Virus record (IMG/VR): IMGVR_UViG_3300032116_001194
Location: 1 to 25,533 of that record
Source of the DNA: a virus
Strand: one strand, 5' to 3'
Length of the DNA stretch: 25,533 bases
The notes below the pieces were generated by a model. It saw only the letters and a list, made by a program, of their open reading frames with translations. It was not told the origin of the DNA and searched no databases. Both the position numbers and the translations under genes were made by a program. The first letter of the stretch is position 1, and every line of letters begins with the position of its first letter. Shown here in pieces: positions 13,232 through 25,435 of the stretch.

Positions 13232-14382
13232 ACATATATGCTCGGTGACTTACTAATGGAGTTAAAGGCATGAGCAAGAGCATCCACGAAGTCATCATGT
13301 TTGTCTTGCTGAGTGCCTGTAAAGTTCAGCAACTCTTCTATAAACTCAGGCGCAAGGTTAGTCGTGTGATATATTAGTCCTTGCTCGTATCGTGCTTCGA
13401 CTGGTTGAAACCTTATTACTTTGTCTCTGTCTGCTCTGACTCCGACTACATTCATTCGAGTATTCCTCTTTAACTCTTGCACCATCCAAGCTTGTGCTTG
13501 ATTGGACTCGACCGCAACTACTCTCGCTTGCCATTTGTCATGTGCCGCGACAATCTGCTTGCCTATCTCTACGAATGTCCACCTGCCTCTTACCGCATCA
13601 ACAACCACAACTTCATTTTGTGCAGTGATGCCTATGGTAACTATCGCGGTATAATCAGCAGTCTCACGCTGGCTGATAGCTAAGTCGACTCCGATATAGT
13701 AGTCAAGACACTTCATGTCATTAGCAATGCGAAGCCACTCTCTCTTTATCTTGCTTGCTCCTCTGTCTACATACTCAGCAAGATACTCCTGAGCGAATGC
13801 AAGAGTTGGGAGTTGTGCCTTTGCTAAGTCAATCTCCGTTGGTTTTATCAAAGGATTATCATAGCTTGAATAATGAAACGACTTCCAATTGCTATATGTT
13901 TGTTGCATCATGTCCAAGTCATAAAAATGATTCCTGCCACTCGGGGTACTCATGAAGTAAGCATCGCCTTCGTAGTCCGCAAGCGTAGGCATGATAACAT
14001 CTTGCCATGCCGTGTCTCCATTGTCAGCATACGCCCACTCATCACATAAGACGCGGTGATAAGCGTTACCTCGAATTGTCTCGCTCCTCCAGACGCCTGT
14101 AAACTCCAAGTAACTCCGCTTTAATTTAATCTCTCCTTCCTTACATGTTGCTCCGAGTGGTTCGAACAACTTCCTTGCATCTCGGTATCTCTTCTTGAGG
14201 TCTTTGTATGTTGGAGCAGTATACAAAACGAATGCACCGTCCACTTCCAACATCTTCTCAAGAGCGAGAGCAAAAGCAAGATGAGACTTGCCAAAGCGAC
14301 GACCGCACCTAATAACATTAAACCTATTGCGCTCATCAATAACTTCGTGTTGCTTATCATGTAACTCAATCCTCAGTTTCAT
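13228..14382 (-). CDS. terL: Terminase large subunit
   Basis: A 384-residue protein from the ATG at 14382 (MKLRIELHDKQHEV), which has AAGGAAAGC before it; a 13-residue upstream extension is rejected. It powers DNA packaging and cuts the concatemer. The ATPase domain shows Walker A (CGRRFGKS, residues 26-33), Walker B (VLCDEWA) and the coupling motif STPSGRNHFYD. The nuclease domain shows the acidic cluster IGVDLA, VAVESN and HDDFVDALAHA. It is short for the family but has both domains. It overlaps the small subunit by 17 bases and the portal by 4. Confidence 0.97.
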   Translation of the reverse strand: MKLRIELHDKQHEVIDERNRFNVIRCGRRFGKSHLAFALALEKMLEVDGAFVLYTAPTYKDLKKRYRDARKLFEPLGATCKEGEIKLKRSYLEFTGVWRSETIRGNAYHRVLCDEWAYADNGDTAWQDVIMPTLADYEGDAYFMSTPSGRNHFYDLDMMQQTYSNWKSFHYSSYDNPLIKPTEIDLAKAQLPTLAFAQEYLAEYVDRGASKIKREWLRIANDMKCLDYYIGVDLAISQRETADYTAIVTIGITAQNEVVVVDAVRGRWTFVEIGKQIVAAHDKWQARVVAVESNQAQAWMVQELKRNTRMNVVGVRADRDKVIRFQPVEARYEQGLIYHTTNLAPEFIEELLNFTGTQQDKHDDFVDALAHAFNSISKSPSIYV

Positions 14383-14680
14383 TGCTTTCCTTCGTTTGCA
14401 ATTTACCCCACACCAACTCAATCTCAGTATCTGTGTGAGTGCCTATGCCATTAGGGAATGCGTACTTCAACAGTAGTTCTGCTGCTCGTATGTTGCCTTT
14501 CATTGCATCACTCCGAAGTTTCAAAAGGATAATGTCCAAAGCAGTACGCTCATCATTGACTTCGCCAAGCGTTTGCGCGAGTGCATTGCCTAAGTCAGGT
14601 ATGCGCTTCGGTCGTCCTTTAGGATTACCGCTTTGTCCTTTCTTCCATTTATGCTTCTCTATGTTTTGTGGATTCGGCAT
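14366..14680 (-). CDS. Terminase small subunit-like protein (DUF5681 type)
   Basis: A 104-residue protein starting MPNPQNIEKHKWKKG. The motif KKGQSGNPKGRPK at residues 13-25 is typical of the DUF5681 domain found on small-terminase-like proteins. The rest is helical (IPDLGNALAQTLGEV, DIILLKLRSDAMKGN, AAELLLKYAFP), as expected for a DNA-recognition subunit. It lies directly before the large subunit. AACAGGCT precedes the ATG. The call rests on motif and position. Confidence 0.85.
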   Translation of the reverse strand: MPNPQNIEKHKWKKGQSGNPKGRPKRIPDLGNALAQTLGEVNDERTALDIILLKLRSDAMKGNIRAAELLLKYAFPNGIGTHTDTEIELVWGKLQTKESNETED

Positions 14681-14716: not shown

Positions 14717-15532
14717 TCACTTGACATATCTCAAAAACTCATTCCTTGTCTTCTCTTCGTCTTTGAATATACCAAGCAACTTTGTTGTAGTCGTCATTGC
14801 GTTTGGTTTCTTAACTCCTCGCATGCTCATGCACAAGTGTTGTGCCTTTAATGATACCGCAACTCCTTTAGGACTCAACTCTTCATTCAACCTATTTGCT
14901 ATTTGTTGAGTAATGCGTTCTTGATTCTGCAACCTGTTGGCATACAAGTCAACACATCGAGCAAGTTTACTTAAACCAACTATCTTTTCGTTTGGTATGT
15001 AAGCAACTGTTGCCGTACCAAAAAACGGAGCAAGGTGATGTTCGCATAATGAATAGAACGGTATATCCGTTTGCACTATCATTTCATCAGTGCCTTCAGC
15101 ATCAAAGGCAGTGAATGCGAATTCTTTTGGAGTCAAGAACTCGCGTAAGAACTTAACATAACGCTCAGGCGTTTGCTTCAATCCTTCACGAGCAACATCT
15201 TCTCCGAAGTACTGCAATATACGAGCGACATTGTCTTCGACTGCTTCTTCTTTTTGTTCCCATGGGAAACGAAGCCACTTGCCTTTTAATTCATCTTCTG
15301 TTTGCTTATCGAACAGTGCTACGAATGGTTTCGCATTGACTGAGTACTTATCACGAGTACGACCGCTATCTATCAAGTCGTCTATGATAACATCACACTC
15401 ACTTACTGTGTCTACTGGGTTAAGCATTGCTGCGATATATTGACCACCGCGAGGTACTCCGTAATACTTCAATGACTTGTCCAATTGCTCAACACGAGAC
15501 TTAATCTCTTGCCATGTTACAATATATTCCAT
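14717..15532 (-). CDS. folE: Phosphoribosyltransferase-GTP cyclohydrolase I fusion
   Basis: A 271-residue fusion from the ATG at 15532 (MEYIVTWQEIKSRVE); a GTG at 15562 is an alternative. Residues 1-92 look like a compact type I phosphoribosyltransferase: YGVPRGGQYIAAML, then the PRPP-binding motif VIIDDLIDSGRT (residues 48-59), and KGKWLRFPWE at the end, as in guanine/xanthine-type enzymes. Residues ~97-260 are GTP cyclohydrolase I, with zinc ligands C163 and H166 in SLCEHHLAPFFG, C234 in QHLCMSMRGV, and the usual GLSKLARCVDLYA helix. FolE makes 7,8-dihydroneopterin triphosphate from GTP, the first step to 7-deazaguanine. The gene overlaps queE by 16 bases. The phosphoribosyltransferase may salvage guanine to GMP; that is inference. 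Confidence 0.93.
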   Translation of the reverse strand: MEYIVTWQEIKSRVEQLDKSLKYYGVPRGGQYIAAMLNPVDTVSECDVIIDDLIDSGRTRDKYSVNAKPFVALFDKQTEDELKGKWLRFPWEQKEEAVEDNVARILQYFGEDVAREGLKQTPERYVKFLREFLTPKEFAFTAFDAEGTDEMIVQTDIPFYSLCEHHLAPFFGTATVAYIPNEKIVGLSKLARCVDLYANRLQNQERITQQIANRLNEELSPKGVAVSLKAQHLCMSMRGVKKPNAMTTTTKLLGIFKDEEKTRNEFLRYVK

Positions 15533-16128
15533 ACCTTGTGACTCTGTAATGAGAGTTTCCACTGCGGGTTCTGTTTACACAACTCAATGCAATGGCGTAA
15601 GTTTACTGTATTGATGCGGGTTCCATCGGAGTGAGGACTCAACCAATAATGCTTTGCTGTTATTGAAGGTTGAGGCACTGACTGCCCTTGATGCCTAACA
15701 TAGCGCAACTCAGTCACGCCTTGAGGAAAGTTTTTTGCTATAACATGTTCAGCAACCTTAGGACTCACACATACAAAGTCAATTCCTATTGGAGCAGGAT
15801 GCAGTCCGCTTGTTTCGACTGCTTGATAATATCCTTCGTCTTTGAAGTACTGCACTATGTCTTCAGTTAACTGGTCAAGAGGTTCTCCGCCTGTCCATGT
15901 AATTTCATTGCATGCCGGCTGTACTTCCCGCATCAAATCAAGTAAGTCACCGACTGTATACTCCGAACCCGACTCAAACTCGGTATCACACATAATGCCT
16001 GAAGCGAAGCAAGCATGTTTTGCTTTGCATCCTTGCAAACGAATAAAGAATGTAGGCGTTCCTGTTCGAGCACCTTCGCCTTGTAATGAGTAAAAGAACT
16101 CACTGACTCTCAATACTGCATCATCCAT
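15517..16128 (-). CDS. queE: 7-carboxy-7-deazaguanine synthase (radical SAM)
   Basis: A 203-residue protein starting MDDAVLRVSEFFYSLQGEG. QueE converts 6-carboxytetrahydropterin to 7-carboxy-7-deazaguanine (CDG). FYSLQGEG followed by GTPTFFIRLQGC is the family signature. The cluster-binding cysteines appear to be C34, C40 and C47 (GCKAKHACFASGIMCDTEF), a CX5CX6C spacing rather than the usual CX3CX2C, although C-D-T after the last Cys is kept. ITWTGGEPLDQ is the SAM-binding GGEP motif, and the end KLSLQSHKVWNIL matches QueE C-termini. It overlaps queD by 8 bases and the FolE fusion at the other end, so the three are co-translated. Confidence 0.93.
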   Translation of the reverse strand: MDDAVLRVSEFFYSLQGEGARTGTPTFFIRLQGCKAKHACFASGIMCDTEFESGSEYTVGDLLDLMREVQPACNEITWTGGEPLDQLTEDIVQYFKDEGYYQAVETSGLHPAPIGIDFVCVSPKVAEHVIAKNFPQGVTELRYVRHQGQSVPQPSITAKHYWLSPHSDGTRINTVNLRHCIELCKQNPQWKLSLQSHKVWNIL

Positions 16129-16552
16129 TTGTTGCTTTCTTATATGTTGCTAAACACTTTCTTGTTTCTTCGACTCTGACTTCTATCAATTCGCAGTCAG
16201 TTCCTGTAAGTTGTTGAGGCCCAACGACTTCCACGAGGTGCTTTGCTAAGTTTTCAGCAGTTGGGTTAAATGGAACAGCAACTATACTGTCTTTATCAGC
16301 ATTCATCAACTGCTCCAGCAACTCGTCTTGCTCCCAAAGGAGAAATTTGTGGTCGTAGTTATCTTCTAACCACATGCAAAGGCGCGACTTGATGACTGAG
16401 AAGTCGATGACTCGCCCGATAAAATCAAGGGTTCTCGCGCTTACTACAAAATGAACTCGGTAATTGTGTCCATGTAGGTACTTGCACTTGCTCTCATGGC
16501 CACTTACTCGGTGACCGCAACTTATATCGTGGTATCTCTCTGCTGTTATCAT
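16121..16552 (-). CDS. queD: 6-carboxytetrahydropterin synthase
   Basis: A 143-residue T-fold enzyme starting MITAERYHDISCGHRV. It converts dihydroneopterin triphosphate, the FolE product, to 6-carboxytetrahydropterin. Zinc ligands are H14 (SCGHRV), H27 and H29 (YLHGHNYRVH); the catalytic Cys is C23. GRVIDFSVIKSRL, NYDHKFLL, PTAENLAKHL and the late EVRVEET (catalytic Glu region) are all in family order. Length is normal for QueD. The ATG lies three bases after the upstream stop, with GGAG before it. Confidence 0.95.
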   Translation of the reverse strand: MITAERYHDISCGHRVSGHESKCKYLHGHNYRVHFVVSARTLDFIGRVIDFSVIKSRLCMWLEDNYDHKFLLWEQDELLEQLMNADKDSIVAVPFNPTAENLAKHLVEVVGPQQLTGTDCELIEVRVEETRKCLATYKKATNG

Positions 16553-16555
16553 AGT

Positions 16556-16963
16556 TTACTCCGAGTCGCGAGCATAATCAGCATGACTAACATGCAATGC
16601 TTGCCATTTTGTGAAGCACAAAACATTGTAGGTATCAAAATCTATCATGACTTCATCAGTCGACTTCAGTTTGTGAGGCACTTCGTCTTCAATACGGTAG
16701 ATAAGATGTGCTCGCACTCGCATGTTAGGTGTAAGCTTGCTGAATGTTTGCTTGTTGCACTCAATAGTAACAAATTTATTAGTCTTAGTTACAAATTCTT
16801 CGAGGTGGCGTAGATTGCTGATTTCATGCAGGTACTCGCGGGTGAAGTATACATGCAAACAGTCATCAGGCACTGTTCCTATCTCATTGCGAACAAAATA
16901 TGTCTTGACTCCGTGCAGTCTTCCTTCGCACTCATGTCCTTTCCAATTATCTTTGCCTTGCAC
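16556..16963 (-). CDS. Unknown protein in the 7-deazaguanine island
   Basis: A 135-residue protein starting with GTG (MQGKDNWKGHECEGRL). The GTG directly follows the stop of the glycosyltransferase (TAAGTG), and GGAG lies nine bases upstream inside the last codons of that gene. It looks like a mixed alpha/beta soluble protein with GVKTYFVRN, CLHVYFTREYL, FVTIECNKQTF, VRAHLIYRIED and a late DTYNVLCFTKWQA. It has no membrane segment or familiar catalytic motif. I do not recognise it. It is locked between the glycosyltransferase and queD with no gap, so a role in making or handling the modified base is possible but unproven. Confidence 0.8.
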   Translation of the reverse strand: MQGKDNWKGHECEGRLHGVKTYFVRNEIGTVPDDCLHVYFTREYLHEISNLRHLEEFVTKTNKFVTIECNKQTFSKLTPNMRVRAHLIYRIEDEVPHKLKSTDEVMIDFDTYNVLCFTKWQALHVSHADYARDSE

Positions 16964-17965
16964 TTATACCAACTCCATTATTTTGCTAACATTGTTTGCA
17001 AATTTTGATTTCCAAGCACTGCTCTCATGAGTTTTGCCACTCGAAAATATATTTTTTATGTCTTCGACTGAGTCATAGATGCTGAACGGAGCAACTACCT
17101 CCTCATAACATGCTCGCCTAGGTACTGCAATGATGCAGTTATACATAATTGCTTCTTGAACTGTGTAACCGAATGTTTCTTGGTACGCAGTTGACAAGTA
17201 ATACTTTGCTCTACTCATCATTTTGTAGTATTCTTGCTTGGTGAGACCACTGATGTAGTCGGCATTCTGCGGGAGCACGACCGAGTTGTCTCTATTACCA
17301 GAAGAAGTCACTACAAATTTTATCTCAGGATAGTGCTCGCATATACTTACGAAGTCATCAAATCCTTTTTCTCTACAAAGTCGGTGCGGATATATCACAA
17401 ACTCTTCTTTTGCTTCGATGTGAGGATATACTTTGTATGCTTCTTCGGCATTCCAGACATAACCAGTTGCTACAACTTTATGTTCAGGCAATTCAAAGTA
17501 CTCTACTACTTGCTTTTTGTGAAACTCACTGCCTACTAATATCAAGTCAGCTACTTCATGATACATTTTTTCTGCGTAGTCAGCCCAGTAGCCGAGTCCT
17601 TGCACAAAATCAGTAGAGTCGGCTCGCCCAGCATAGTTGAAACCAACTATTCTTACCTTGATGCCTTGCAACTCGGCCATGTACTTGATGCTCTCTATGC
17701 CCGGGAAGAACAAGTCGCCTATCAAAAATGAGTCACCATCATTGACTTTGCCTTCTTGGAATGCTCGACTGACCATTGCCAACTGCTTTGACTTGAACTC
17801 TATGGTTCTTTCAACATCAAGGAACTGTCCTTTTGCTATTTTTGTCTCAACAAAGTCGGTTGGGTAATAGACATGAGAGCAAAACGGTGAGACTACTGCA
17901 TTCATCAGCCTTGTATACCGCTGCTCCATATTCTCAATAGGCAAAAAGTGTATTGCTTTACTCAT
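16964..17965 (-). CDS. GT-B glycosyltransferase (GT4-like)
   Basis: A 333-residue protein starting MSKAIHFLPIENMEQ; its ATG overlaps the upstream stop (ATGA). It is expected to transfer a sugar from a nucleotide-sugar to an unknown acceptor. The C-terminal half has GT4-type motifs: YPHRLCREKGFDDFV (residues 192-206), the strand KFVVTSSG, and the E-x7-E donor site (E263 and E271 in QETFGYTVQEA) followed by IIAVPRRACYEEV. The N-terminal half is a divergent acceptor domain with LIGDLFFPGIESI and ADLILVGSEFHKKQV. It sits between the T-fold gene and the unknown gene inside the 7-deazaguanine island. A DNA-base acceptor is possible; virion or cell-surface targets cannot be excluded. Confidence 0.87.
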   Translation of the reverse strand: MSKAIHFLPIENMEQRYTRLMNAVVSPFCSHVYYPTDFVETKIAKGQFLDVERTIEFKSKQLAMVSRAFQEGKVNDGDSFLIGDLFFPGIESIKYMAELQGIKVRIVGFNYAGRADSTDFVQGLGYWADYAEKMYHEVADLILVGSEFHKKQVVEYFELPEHKVVATGYVWNAEEAYKVYPHIEAKEEFVIYPHRLCREKGFDDFVSICEHYPEIKFVVTSSGNRDNSVVLPQNADYISGLTKQEYYKMMSRAKYYLSTAYQETFGYTVQEAIMYNCIIAVPRRACYEEVVAPFSIYDSVEDIKNIFSSGKTHESSAWKSKFANNVSKIMELV

Positions 17966-18291
17966 TTTTTTACTATTGCTCCGTTTTCATTGTCTTCAAG
18001 TACCTGCACAAACTCAAAGTCAAAACGGTTAAGCAAGTCTTCAGCAATGTCTTCGCAACTCATTGCATAAAAATTACCATCGAATGACTCCAAGTACTCA
18101 CTTACTATTCGTTTGAGCATGATGATTTCTATTTCTCGGTCGTTATGACTGACTTCTTTGTGTGCTTCGATATAAAACATGTGTCTATGCGGGTTCCGAA
18201 GGTATTCAACACCTCGAACATCGCAGTTAGGCCAGCAATGTATGCCTTCGACTTGCAGTCTAATGACTACCAACTTTCTTAAACTTGTCAT
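17962..18291 (-). CDS. Small QueD-like T-fold protein, function unknown
   Basis: A 109-residue protein starting MTSLRKLVVIRLQVEG. Strand and helix order resembles the QueD/PTPS T-fold: a first strand ending in H18-C19 (GIHCWPNC), H35 and H37 (NPHRHMFYIEAH), then REIEIIMLKRIVSEYLE like the QueD ID-F-x-x-I-K helix, CEDIAEDLLNRF like its PTAENLA helix, and VQVLEDNENGA with E99 where QueD has its late Glu. H18, H35 and H37 could form the zinc site. The insertion between H18 and H35 is longer than in QueD. It overlaps the DpdA gene by 32 bases and the glycosyltransferase by 4. It could modify CDG (for example a decarboxylase) or be an unrelated T-fold enzyme; this is inference. Confidence 0.75.
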   Translation of the reverse strand: MTSLRKLVVIRLQVEGIHCWPNCDVRGVEYLRNPHRHMFYIEAHKEVSHNDREIEIIMLKRIVSEYLESFDGNFYAMSCEDIAEDLLNRFDFEFVQVLEDNENGAIVKK

Positions 18292-19180
18292 AAGTCAGTG
18301 TTCCGTTACTCATTTGTTCGTCAACCCAGATGATATTCTCGACTTGTCTGGTGGTTGAGCATGCAAGAAACAAATTTAGTCCTCTTGCCTTGCAGTATTT
18401 TTGATATTCGATATAAGCAACCGTGCTTAACAAGCCTTCTATGCTCTGTTGCTTGTGATGATTTTCTTTTTGGTTGAAGTCTTTGACTGATACTTCATAC
18501 TTGTCAAGCAACTCCGTTAGTTTTGGAGGCATTACTCGCTTGCGGTTAAACACTTCGCGGTGCTGAATGCCTTGTATACCGTTATCCCACCACTTCAATA
18601 TACCATAAATCTGTGCACCTTGTATCCATGTGCTACTGTCTACGCTATGCAATGGCAACTGCAACATGTCGGGGAACTTAACAAAGCCAAGTGCATGAAG
18701 CAAACCACCACTATGTTTGTAAACATCTTGGTACCTTTTGCGTATCCATTGTCTATTGCTGAGCAAGCCGCCTGACACGCATATATGCGGGTTCTGTGTC
18801 ACTGCAAACTTTAAGTATTCGTAGTCGGTATCATACGAAGTGAAGACATACATAGGATTGTAACCACGCTCGAGCATCGTCTCATAATTATTTCTTGACT
18901 GAGCGTCGTTATTGATAACATCCAAGTTTACATACTTCTCAGCATACTGACTATACATGTCAAGGAACTTACAGTAGTTATCTAAGTTAATCCAAGACAA
19001 CTTACCTGGCTTTGCGAAGTGCAGTGTGAATGCACCACTGTCTATCATTACATTTATTCTTTGGTCAGCACTTGCTCCGAACACTAACTCAGTAAATTTT
19101 TTGGACTTGCCTACATAAGCGAATGAAACAAGTACATTTAAGTAGGTATCATTTGATAACACAACCACTGTACTCCACAT
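18260..19180 (-). CDS. dpdA: DpdA-type DNA guanine transglycosylase
   Basis: A 306-residue TGT-fold protein. DpdA enzymes exchange guanine in DNA for a 7-deazaguanine base. Residue D47 in VMIDSGAF aligns with the general acid/base Asp of tRNA-guanine transglycosylases (VDSGSF in archaeal TGT). D87 lies in VNLDVIN. ICVSGGLLSNR (residues 133-143) fits the substrate loop, and HALGFVKFPDML followed by HSVDSSTW places D181 as the likely nucleophile. The CxCxxC..H zinc site of tRNA enzymes is not visible, and the protein lacks an RNA-binding PUA domain. A DNA rather than tRNA target is supported by the phage context and by folE, queD and queE nearby. The start overlaps the ParB gene by 32 bases; GTG codons 5 and 7 are alternatives. 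Confidence 0.85.
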   Translation of the reverse strand: MWSTVVVLSNDTYLNVLVSFAYVGKSKKFTELVFGASADQRINVMIDSGAFTLHFAKPGKLSWINLDNYCKFLDMYSQYAEKYVNLDVINNDAQSRNNYETMLERGYNPMYVFTSYDTDYEYLKFAVTQNPHICVSGGLLSNRQWIRKRYQDVYKHSGGLLHALGFVKFPDMLQLPLHSVDSSTWIQGAQIYGILKWWDNGIQGIQHREVFNRKRVMPPKLTELLDKYEVSVKDFNQKENHHKQQSIEGLLSTVAYIEYQKYCKARGLNLFLACSTTRQVENIIWVDEQMSNGTLTYDKFKKVGSH

Positions 19181-19676
19181 TGAGCAAACTCTTGATGGCT
19201 TCTTCTATTGCAGGCATGTCAAGAAGCAACTCGTCTGGTACAGTCACGGTTATCACATTGTCTTTTCTCATCGGTGGAGCAGTTTGTTCTTCTGCAATGT
19301 ACTCTAACTGTGTCCAATCTTGAGGAATTGTAACATCAACTCCCCACTCCGATAAGTCTTCTACGTCCCATTCGTTTGCAAGCACCTCATGGTTCCATTC
19401 TCCGAAGGAAGCATTGTCTTTAATGATGAATTGCCTTTGCTTTTCTTCACTCCAGTCAACAACTTCAACATCAACTTCTTTTACTTTTGCTTCCTGCAAT
19501 GCTTTGAGTCGCATGTTACCTCCTAATACTACGAAGTCAGGGGTGCAAACTAGCCTGCGTACATCAAGCATCTCGGGGAATTCAGTAATTGACTTGACTA
19601 ATTTTCTAAACTGCTCATCTTTTATGACTCGCGGGTTGCTTGGATTAGGTTTGAGTTGTGATATTTTGACTCTCAT
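19149..19676 (-). CDS. ParB/sulfiredoxin-fold nuclease-like protein
   Basis: A 175-residue protein starting MRVKISQLKPNPSNPRVIKD. This N-terminus (I..LKPNP.NPR) and the VLGGNMRLKALQEA motif (about residues 50-63) are typical of the ParB N-terminal / Srx fold, which binds nucleotides and in phages is often tied to DNA modification or nuclease activity. The rest has EEKQRQFIIKDNASFGEW and a Trp-rich stretch. It lacks a ParB helix-turn-helix and DNA-binding C-terminal domain, so a partition role is unlikely. It lies just before the DpdA gene with an overlap and has AACAGGTAAGAC before its ATG. It may be a partner for DpdA, which is inference. Confidence 0.85.
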   Translation of the reverse strand: MRVKISQLKPNPSNPRVIKDEQFRKLVKSITEFPEMLDVRRLVCTPDFVVLGGNMRLKALQEAKVKEVDVEVVDWSEEKQRQFIIKDNASFGEWNHEVLANEWDVEDLSEWGVDVTIPQDWTQLEYIAEEQTAPPMRKDNVITVTVPDELLLDMPAIEEAIKSLLNVEYSGCVIK

Positions 19677-24823: not shown

Positions 24824-25435
24824 TTAATTGCCATCCTCTACATGGCTTGGTTTTATGCGGGTTTTCGGCTCTGTCTTCTTTGTATGTTGTTCTTGCTTTG
24901 TGCAAACTATTAAGTTTGCTACGACTTCAATAGCAAACGGAGTCGCAACTAAGGTCTCAATTATTTTCATCGCATCATCTTCAGTTATGACTGAAGTGTA
25001 ATTGTGATAAATTAACTTGCCACCTGTTGTTATTTTCGGAGTCCAAGCTTGCAGTATATTTGTAAGCTTGCTCGCGCCAACTATCGCATCAACAAACAAA
25101 ACATCTACTGTTGCATCTTCAAAGTTCTTTGCTCCTGTTTCCAAAGTGTCAACTTTCTTTATGCTTTGCTTGCAGCCGAACTCTCTAAGTCTTTGCTCCG
25201 CATAGTCTTGAGCAAATTCATGTCCTAAGTAGTCAGTCGAGTCAATCAATACATGTTTTGCTTTGCACTTTTTCTCTTCTAAGATTTGACTCCACAATAC
25301 TGCATGCCGACCGTATTGTGTGCCAGCCTCAACTATCGTGATTGTACCAGCATTCTCACCGACTATGTCTTCAAGCAACTTGCCGTCGACTCCGTAAGTA
25401 GCATGCCCAGTAATTTTTTGGTAGTCTCTTTTCAT
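24824..25435 (-). CDS. Class I SAM-dependent methyltransferase
   Basis: A 203-residue protein starting MKRDYQKITGHATYG. It has the Rossmann methyltransferase pattern: ITIVEAGTQYGR (motif I, residues 33-43), D65 after the second strand (KHVLIDSTDYLG), VDVLFVDA (residues 110-117), and a late GGKLIYHNYT strand. The pattern resembles Methyltransf_24-type enzymes of small molecules or sugars rather than DNA methylases, as no DPPY/NPPY motif is visible. The acceptor is unknown. Its ATG overlaps the stop of the partial gene upstream (ATGA). The C-terminal 20 residues are Lys/Glu-rich. Confidence 0.83.
   Translation of the reverse strand: MKRDYQKITGHATYGVDGKLLEDIVGENAGTITIVEAGTQYGRHAVLWSQILEEKKCKAKHVLIDSTDYLGHEFAQDYAEQRLREFGCKQSIKKVDTLETGAKNFEDATVDVLFVDAIVGASKLTNILQAWTPKITTGGKLIYHNYTSVITEDDAMKIIETLVATPFAIEVVANLIVCTKQEQHTKKTEPKTRIKPSHVEDGN

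Follow-up and report, generated by a model that had tools for sequence, protein, structure and literature searches.

Gene content of the island

The window analysed here is the whole 25,533-nucleotide stretch of the IMG/VR virus record IMGVR_UViG_3300032116_001194. It carries genes of a tailed phage (terminase, portal, capsid-like and tape-measure proteins) and, between the terminase genes on one side and a metallophosphoesterase/membrane-protein pair on the other, an island of eight minus-strand open reading frames (ORFs) at positions 14717-19676. A first-pass annotation had described this island as an overlapping block for 7-deazaguanine modification of DNA, and the ORF list, translations and family matches bear out the block and its coordinates. 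Our best reading, to which we assign a probability of roughly 0.55, is that the island is a phage DNA-hypermodification operon using a branch of the 7-deazaguanine pathway that lacks QueC, with steps carried out by a QueD-fold protein (TF6), the transglycosylase DpdA and a glycosyltransferase (GT). The genes, in the order of transcription, are:

19149-19676, minus strand: ParB-fold protein, 175 aa, at the head of the block; ParB_N and ParB-like PHROGs, best E 1e-20
18260-19180, minus strand: DpdA-type DNA-guanine transglycosylase, 306 aa; phrog_887, E 6.6e-31
17962-18291, minus strand: TF6, QueD-fold (T-fold) protein; phrog_17812, E 2e-23
16964-17965, minus strand: GT, retaining GT4-type glycosyltransferase, 333 aa; Glycos_transf_1, E 7e-7
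16556-16963, minus strand: X4, 135-aa protein, no family
16121-16552, minus strand: QueD, 6-carboxytetrahydropterin synthase; PF01242, E 6.5e-27, and phrog_2389, E 7e-49
15517-16128, minus strand: QueE, 7-carboxy-7-deazaguanine (CDG) synthase (radical SAM); phrog_2076, E 5e-23, and NCBIfam TIGR04508, E 4e-34
14717-15562, minus strand: fusion of a phosphoribosyltransferase (PRTase) with FolE, GTP cyclohydrolase I; PF01227, E 4e-65

Neighbouring genes overlap by 4-46 nt (32 nt for ParB/DpdA, 4 nt for TF6/GT), abut, or are separated by a gap of 3 nt. The order ParB-DpdA-TF6-GT-[X]-QueD-QueE-FolE was also found in the diverged viral contigs L013, L034, L036 and L029-L031, and in a Flavobacterium contig (L107) from a metagenome-assembled genome (MAG). 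Because diverged contigs share this gene order, the island is more than a chance arrangement. The Flavobacterium contig suggests a Bacteroidota host for the virus of the window.

The pathway to CDG is complete, as FolE, QueD and QueE are all present with their catalytic residues. Synthesis of CDG by these three enzymes and base exchange by DpdA are established (PMC6884629), and the presence of all four functions in the island, already proposed in the first pass, is supported by family matches and catalytic residues. The island QueD keeps C23, H27, D67, H68 and E129, and its catalytic residues show little or no variation in 22 relatives. In QueE, the three cysteines are spaced CX5CX6C and followed by DT, unlike the CX3CX2C or CX14CX2C arrangements; the close relatives in L013, L015, L030 and L097 share this spacing. 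Long insertions precede the third cysteine in the QueE proteins of other TF6 loci. At L038:4569-6350, the QueE gene is split by an apparent in-frame intein just before the third cluster cysteine.

TF6 has the fold of QueD and a different set of conserved residues

The AlphaFold model of TF6 (predicted local distance difference test, pLDDT, 96) best matches E. coli QueD in the Protein Data Bank (PDB; 4ntk, template modelling score 0.79). The three metal-ligand histidines of the T-fold are kept (H18, H35, H37), as is the base-anchoring glutamate of QueD (E99). By contrast, the QueD catalytic cysteine, which lies four residues before the HxH motif (C23 in the island QueD), is an invariant Leu31 in TF6, and the residue comparison with QueD gave no counterpart of its Asp-His pair. 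Altogether, fourteen positions are invariant across 61 diverged sequences, including H18, H35, R36, H37, H49, R52, E55, S78, C79, E80 and E99. The new invariant set H49, R52, E55, S78, C79, E80 and E99 suggests that TF6 acts on a similar substrate (pterin- or deazaguanine-like) and catalyses another reaction.

The idea that TF6 is a second QueD was rejected, as most TF6 records also have a QueD and TF6 has lost the QueD catalytic residues. This loss of the cysteine and the Asp-His pair could alternatively mean that TF6 catalyses no step itself and is a QueD paralogue that has degenerated or turned regulatory, for instance by serving as a scaffold for QueD/FolE. We consider this quite improbable: the fourteen invariant positions, with the H49-R52-E55 and S78-C79-E80 set and the three metal histidines, indicate an active site under selection, and TF6 strictly replaces QueC (see the next section). 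Two fused forms were also seen. In Chryseobacterium phage MA9V-3 (L011:9461-10342) the TF6 domain lies behind an endonuclease-VII-like domain, and a structure-library match places TF6 within a 300-aa 'AAA domain' protein.

TF6 loci and the exclusion of QueC

Relatives of TF6 were detected in at least 595 viral contigs, of which the 80 best matches were retained, as well as in phage isolates and in assembled genomes, the latter chiefly contigs of MAGs. A total of 100 loci were mapped using TF6 as bait, so that all frequencies are conditional on similarity to TF6, and most of the contigs are fragments. FolE was found in 70 of these loci, QueE and QueD in 64 each, GT in 60 and a PRTase gene or domain (PRT) in 44. 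Exactly one of three types of tRNA-guanine transglycosylase (TGT) or DpdA was present in 89 loci, and none had two. The DpdA type of the window accounted for 32, a second, phrog_10773-like type with a DSGGLQ motif for 35, and a third type of 260-288 aa, which includes gp65 of phage phiST, for 22.

We rejected the view that the third type is an unrelated protein, as D-N-[SG]-A, H-x-L-G and W/T-D-S motifs stand at TGT positions. This type (L004:10804-11583, as well as L011, L022, L048, L058, L061, L065, L073 and others) was always without GT, and is a candidate DpdA3. In some of its loci, a small protein is coded between TGT and TF6 (a P-loop kinase in L011).

None of 74 TF6-bearing records had a QueC above the curated cut-off, in a search that was positive in control genomes, and no QueC-like match was seen among the ORFs scanned in the window, which is a fragment. 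As controls, seven DpdA phages without TF6 were used (Bipper, NP1, EC151, RHEph04, M39, HD01 and yong3). Here QueC was present in six, whereas TF6 and GT were found in none of the seven, in a run that did detect the TF6-positive phages. TF6 and QueC are thus mutually exclusive, which is most simply explained if CDG is the substrate of TF6 as it is of QueC elsewhere. TF6 appears to take the place of QueC at CDG, and we hold its action on CDG with moderate confidence. TF6 is also a candidate CDG decarboxylase, and for decarboxylation as the reaction our confidence is lower.

The QueD-QueE-FolE-MazG-TF6 cluster of Cellulophaga phage phiST shares with the window FolE, QueD, QueE, a TF6 homologue (42% identity) and the lack of QueC, and differs in having the third TGT type (gp65), MazG-like and other neighbours and no GT. 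Cui et al. reportedly described in 2023 both 7-deazaguanine (dDG) and CDG (dCDG) in phage DNA, with phiST as a dDG phage, and predicted that an enzyme named DpdL decarboxylates CDG. TF6 is a candidate for DpdL, given where it lies in the phiST cluster.

DpdA and its probable ParB-fold partner

The DpdA of the island is a genuine TGT/DpdA relative by its sequence. The family phrog_887 is annotated as queuine tRNA-ribosyltransferase, and a profile of 26 relatives has as its top PDB match the bacterial DNA-guanine transglycosylase 7ui4 (E 8e-4). Both catalytic aspartates of TGT are present (D47, in the DSG motif, and D181), and D47, G49, D87, H162, D181 and S182 are invariant among the relatives. 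Profile and motifs thus agree with the TGT fold assumed in the first-pass annotation. The nearest DpdA proteins of phage isolates are those of mycobacteriophages Typha and Bipper, with about 28-29% identity.

In 27 of the 32 loci with the window DpdA type, no more than 600 nt separate a ParB gene from DpdA, whereas no ParB gene was seen in the sampled TF6 loci with the second TGT type. In phage Bipper, ParB likewise precedes DpdA. Because it pairs with one DpdA type only, and with DpdA in Bipper, the ParB-fold protein is probably a DpdA partner or DNA-binding protein rather than a tailoring enzyme; that it aids DpdA is proposed with moderate confidence.

A purine phosphoribosyltransferase fused to FolE

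The gene at 14717-15562 is indeed a FolE, as first annotated, although an N-terminal domain had been overlooked. A compact purine PRTase (about residues 11-108) precedes FolE (109-281), and the ATG at 15532 is probably the better start. The PRTase domain carries the motifs VPRGG, DDLIDSGRT and FPWE and has a shortened base-binding region; RGG and DDxxDSG are conserved. Iterated profiles tie it to the stand-alone PRT genes of other TF6 loci, a family that matches purine/XGPRT structures at E 6e-29. In the 44 loci with PRT, 15 have PRT-FolE fusions and 29 have separate genes.

Each base that a transglycosylase inserts must set one guanine free, and from this we infer a recycling role: most likely, the fused PRTase would convert the guanine released by DpdA to GMP, so that GTP is returned to FolE. 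Alternatively, the domain could ribosylate CDG, so that the pathway would run partly at the nucleotide level. The tubercidin enzyme TubE provides a precedent, as this purine PRTase has been shown to act on CDG with phosphoribosyl pyrophosphate (PMC6112128); in addition, PRT is fused to FolE or coded near QueD/QueE. We nevertheless regard a TubE-like role as doubtful. A DpdA/TGT-type enzyme, which uses the free base, stands beside TF6 in 89 of the 100 loci, more than half of the loci have no PRT, and the PRT profile is nearest to purine PRTases of the hypoxanthine/guanine/xanthine type.

The glycosyltransferase and the proposed modification

GT shows the GT-B fold, the EX7E motif and the Arg/Lys donor-phosphate residues of the GT4 family. 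Its AlphaFold model (pLDDT 92) best matches BshA/MshA and other GT4 enzymes in the PDB. R195, E199, K200 and E271, the second glutamate of EX7E, are conserved in 45 relatives; within the motif, which reads ETFGYTVQE in the window, E271 alone is invariant.

GT lies less than 1.8 kb from TF6 in all 59 loci measured, and in 33 of them the two genes overlap or are at most 100 nt apart. Its presence varies with the TGT type: 20 of 32 loci with the window DpdA type, all 35 with the second type and none of 22 with the third. TF6 and GT stand near 7-deazaguanine genes in the isolates ACP17, X1, BUCT-ZZ01, Paride and Phosso, and GT is close to TF6/DpdA in phages of Synechococcus, Pseudomonas, Acidovorax, Xanthomonas and Bacteroidota. 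GT therefore appears to be a recurrent tailoring partner. On the tree of the DpdA type, the presence or absence of GT needs one change, compared with about eight in shuffles, the deepest branch being weakly supported. This pattern supports, without proving, that the GT product and DpdA go together; co-inheritance of the whole island would give the same pattern. Overall, the neighbourhood comparison shows the extra genes to be strongly linked and recurrent in many unrelated phages. The earlier suggestion that they tailor the base gains from this recurrence and from the exclusion of QueC in the case of TF6 and GT, but not in the case of the ParB-fold protein, which looks more like a DpdA partner, or of X4, which is dispensable.

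Taken together, the following route is proposed. FolE, QueD and QueE would convert GTP to CDG, by established family chemistry. TF6 would then act on CDG at the usual point of QueC, most likely by decarboxylation to 7-deazaguanine. DpdA, with the ParB-fold protein as a putative helper, would put the resulting base in place of guanine in double-stranded phage DNA, an action known from DpdA relatives. The GT4 enzyme might then use a nucleotide sugar as donor to glycosylate the 7-deazaguanine unit, at C7 or at a retained carboxylate. Resistance to restriction would be the expected outcome. We give about even odds to the wider proposal that glycosylated 7-deazaguanine is a widespread, undescribed hypermodification of phage DNA, in which TF6 converts CDG, GT4 adds the sugar and PRTase-FolE recycles guanine. 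Genomic linkage suggests, with lower confidence, that GT glycosylates the base within DNA. Just after TF6 and GT, Paride codes for a short protein resembling NAD-dependent epimerases/dehydratases (L008:13785-14303), which could shape the sugar donor.

Several points weigh against the hypermodification operon with its sugar step: the bait-conditioned sampling of mostly fragmentary contigs mentioned above; the literature searched, in which no TF6 relative has been assayed; the great diversity of GT4 acceptors, which could give GT another target; and the chemistry of 7-deazaguanine, which has no hydroxyl and only N2 as an amine handle, so that ordinary O-glycosylation is not obvious. Moreover, the sugar-bearing base and its chemistry are predicted here from the genes.

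It could be that the DNA contains plain dDG or dCDG without sugar, and that GT is merely a neighbour acting elsewhere, e.g. on a phage protein or a host surface glycan, as the range of GT4 acceptors would allow. The CDG genes and DpdA are enough for dCDG, GT is missing from the 22 loci of the third TGT type and from 12 of the DpdA type, and Bipper has ParB-DpdA-QueD-QueE-FolE without TF6 or GT. However, GT is found near TF6/DpdA in very different phages, accompanies the second TGT type in each of its 35 loci, and is absent from the DpdA phages of the QueC type. On balance, we judge the plain base unlikely, if well worth considering.

The acceptor of GT depends on what TF6 does. If TF6 is DpdL, the acceptor would most plausibly be 7-deazaguanine itself, at C7, which is chemically unusual for GT4. 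Otherwise, the product could be a glycosyl ester of CDG: TF6 would bind or activate CDG, GT would act on the carboxylate, and the final base would be glycosylated dCDG. CDG is the last base made by identified enzymes, TF6 keeps the base-anchoring glutamate of QueD, and no UbiD-type decarboxylase was seen among the annotated ORFs of the window. The 22 third-type loci, including phiST, have TF6 without GT, hence a GT-independent job for TF6. The dDG that Cui et al. reportedly found in phages of this group, together with the decarboxylase they predicted, also speaks against the ester, which seems rather improbable to us.

Comparison with known systems

The closest island in layout is that of Mycobacterium phage Bipper, ParB-DpdA-QueD-QueE-FolE-terminase, which resembles the window in gene order, DpdA type, lack of QueC and terminase-adjacent place. 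Unlike the window, Bipper has neither TF6 nor GT, carries a different 141-aa protein after DpdA, and codes for a FolE product of 208 aa instead of 281 aa. Bipper has been suggested as a possible CDG-modified phage (PMC6884629).

The jumbo or T4-like phages ACP17, X1, Paride/PA5oct, BUCT-ZZ01 and Phosso share with the window TF6 beside GT (1.4 kb in X1), FolE/QueE nearby, a QueD in the genome and no QueC above the cut-off. The second TGT type replaces the window DpdA where a TGT was found; in Phosso none was found. The genes of these clusters are annotated as hypothetical, and no modification of these phages is reported in the literature searched.

The preQ0/archaeosine islands (9g, CAjan, EC151, NP1; PMC6884629) have in common with the window FolE/QueD/QueE and the insertion of a 7-deazaguanine into DNA by DpdA. 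In contrast to the window they use QueC, and those tested had no TF6 and no GT. The bacterial dpd island has a DpdA (7ui4) of the same superfamily as the window DpdA; such islands carry restriction genes, and the window proteins gave no match as a dpd system in PADLOC. An accessory protein, DpdB, is known in the bacterial system. The T4 alpha- and beta-glucosyltransferases offer a functional parallel, as they place sugar on a modified base after replication. They act on hydroxymethylcytosine, and no hydroxylated-pyrimidine pathway was seen in the window.

Modification of phage DNA with 7-deazaguanines is already known, as are CDG-only islands and phage DNA pyrimidines that bear sugars. In the literature searched, which covered part of the field, we found no mention of the recurrent TF6-GT-DpdA module, of its exclusion of QueC or of the PRT-FolE fusion, and no description of a glycosylated 7-deazaguanine in DNA; searches for papers joining 7-deazaguanine with glycosyltransferases likewise led to no described modification. 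The module is common, going by the number of viral contigs with TF6, and is present in phages in culture, among them Paride, which kills dormant cells; this provides named genes to test. If the proposal is correct, CDG would have a third fate besides preQ0/archaeosine-type bases and plain dDG/dCDG, with a new T-fold enzyme and a glycosyltransferase that could be used to label DNA at guanine sites.

Other observations

X4 is an optional, dispensable gene. Domain and family scans gave no family beyond noise-level matches and no phage-isolate homologue, and among the sampled loci relatives occur only in L002, L013 and L036, at the same position.

GT-TF6-TGT-QueD cassettes were seen in contigs of Magnetospirillum/Rhodospirillaceae (L119, L122, L123, L129, L130), some of them chromosomal, and may represent a prophage or a cellular modification island; in L122 an integrase gene lies near the cassette. 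Contigs assigned to Amycolatopsis, Bradyrhizobium and Haloactinopolyspora (L115, L121, L124, L131) carry TF6 and DpdA-type genes and are probably prophages. TF6 clusters in two contigs binned to ammonia-oxidising archaea (L109, L113; Nitrosopelagicus, Nitrosotalea) are probably viral.

Elsewhere in the window, a 104-aa protein coded between FolE and the terminase large subunit (14366-14680) is probably a small terminase or DNA-packaging protein, and a Methyltransf_24-type methyltransferase (24824-25435) and a CHAP-domain protein lie at the window end.

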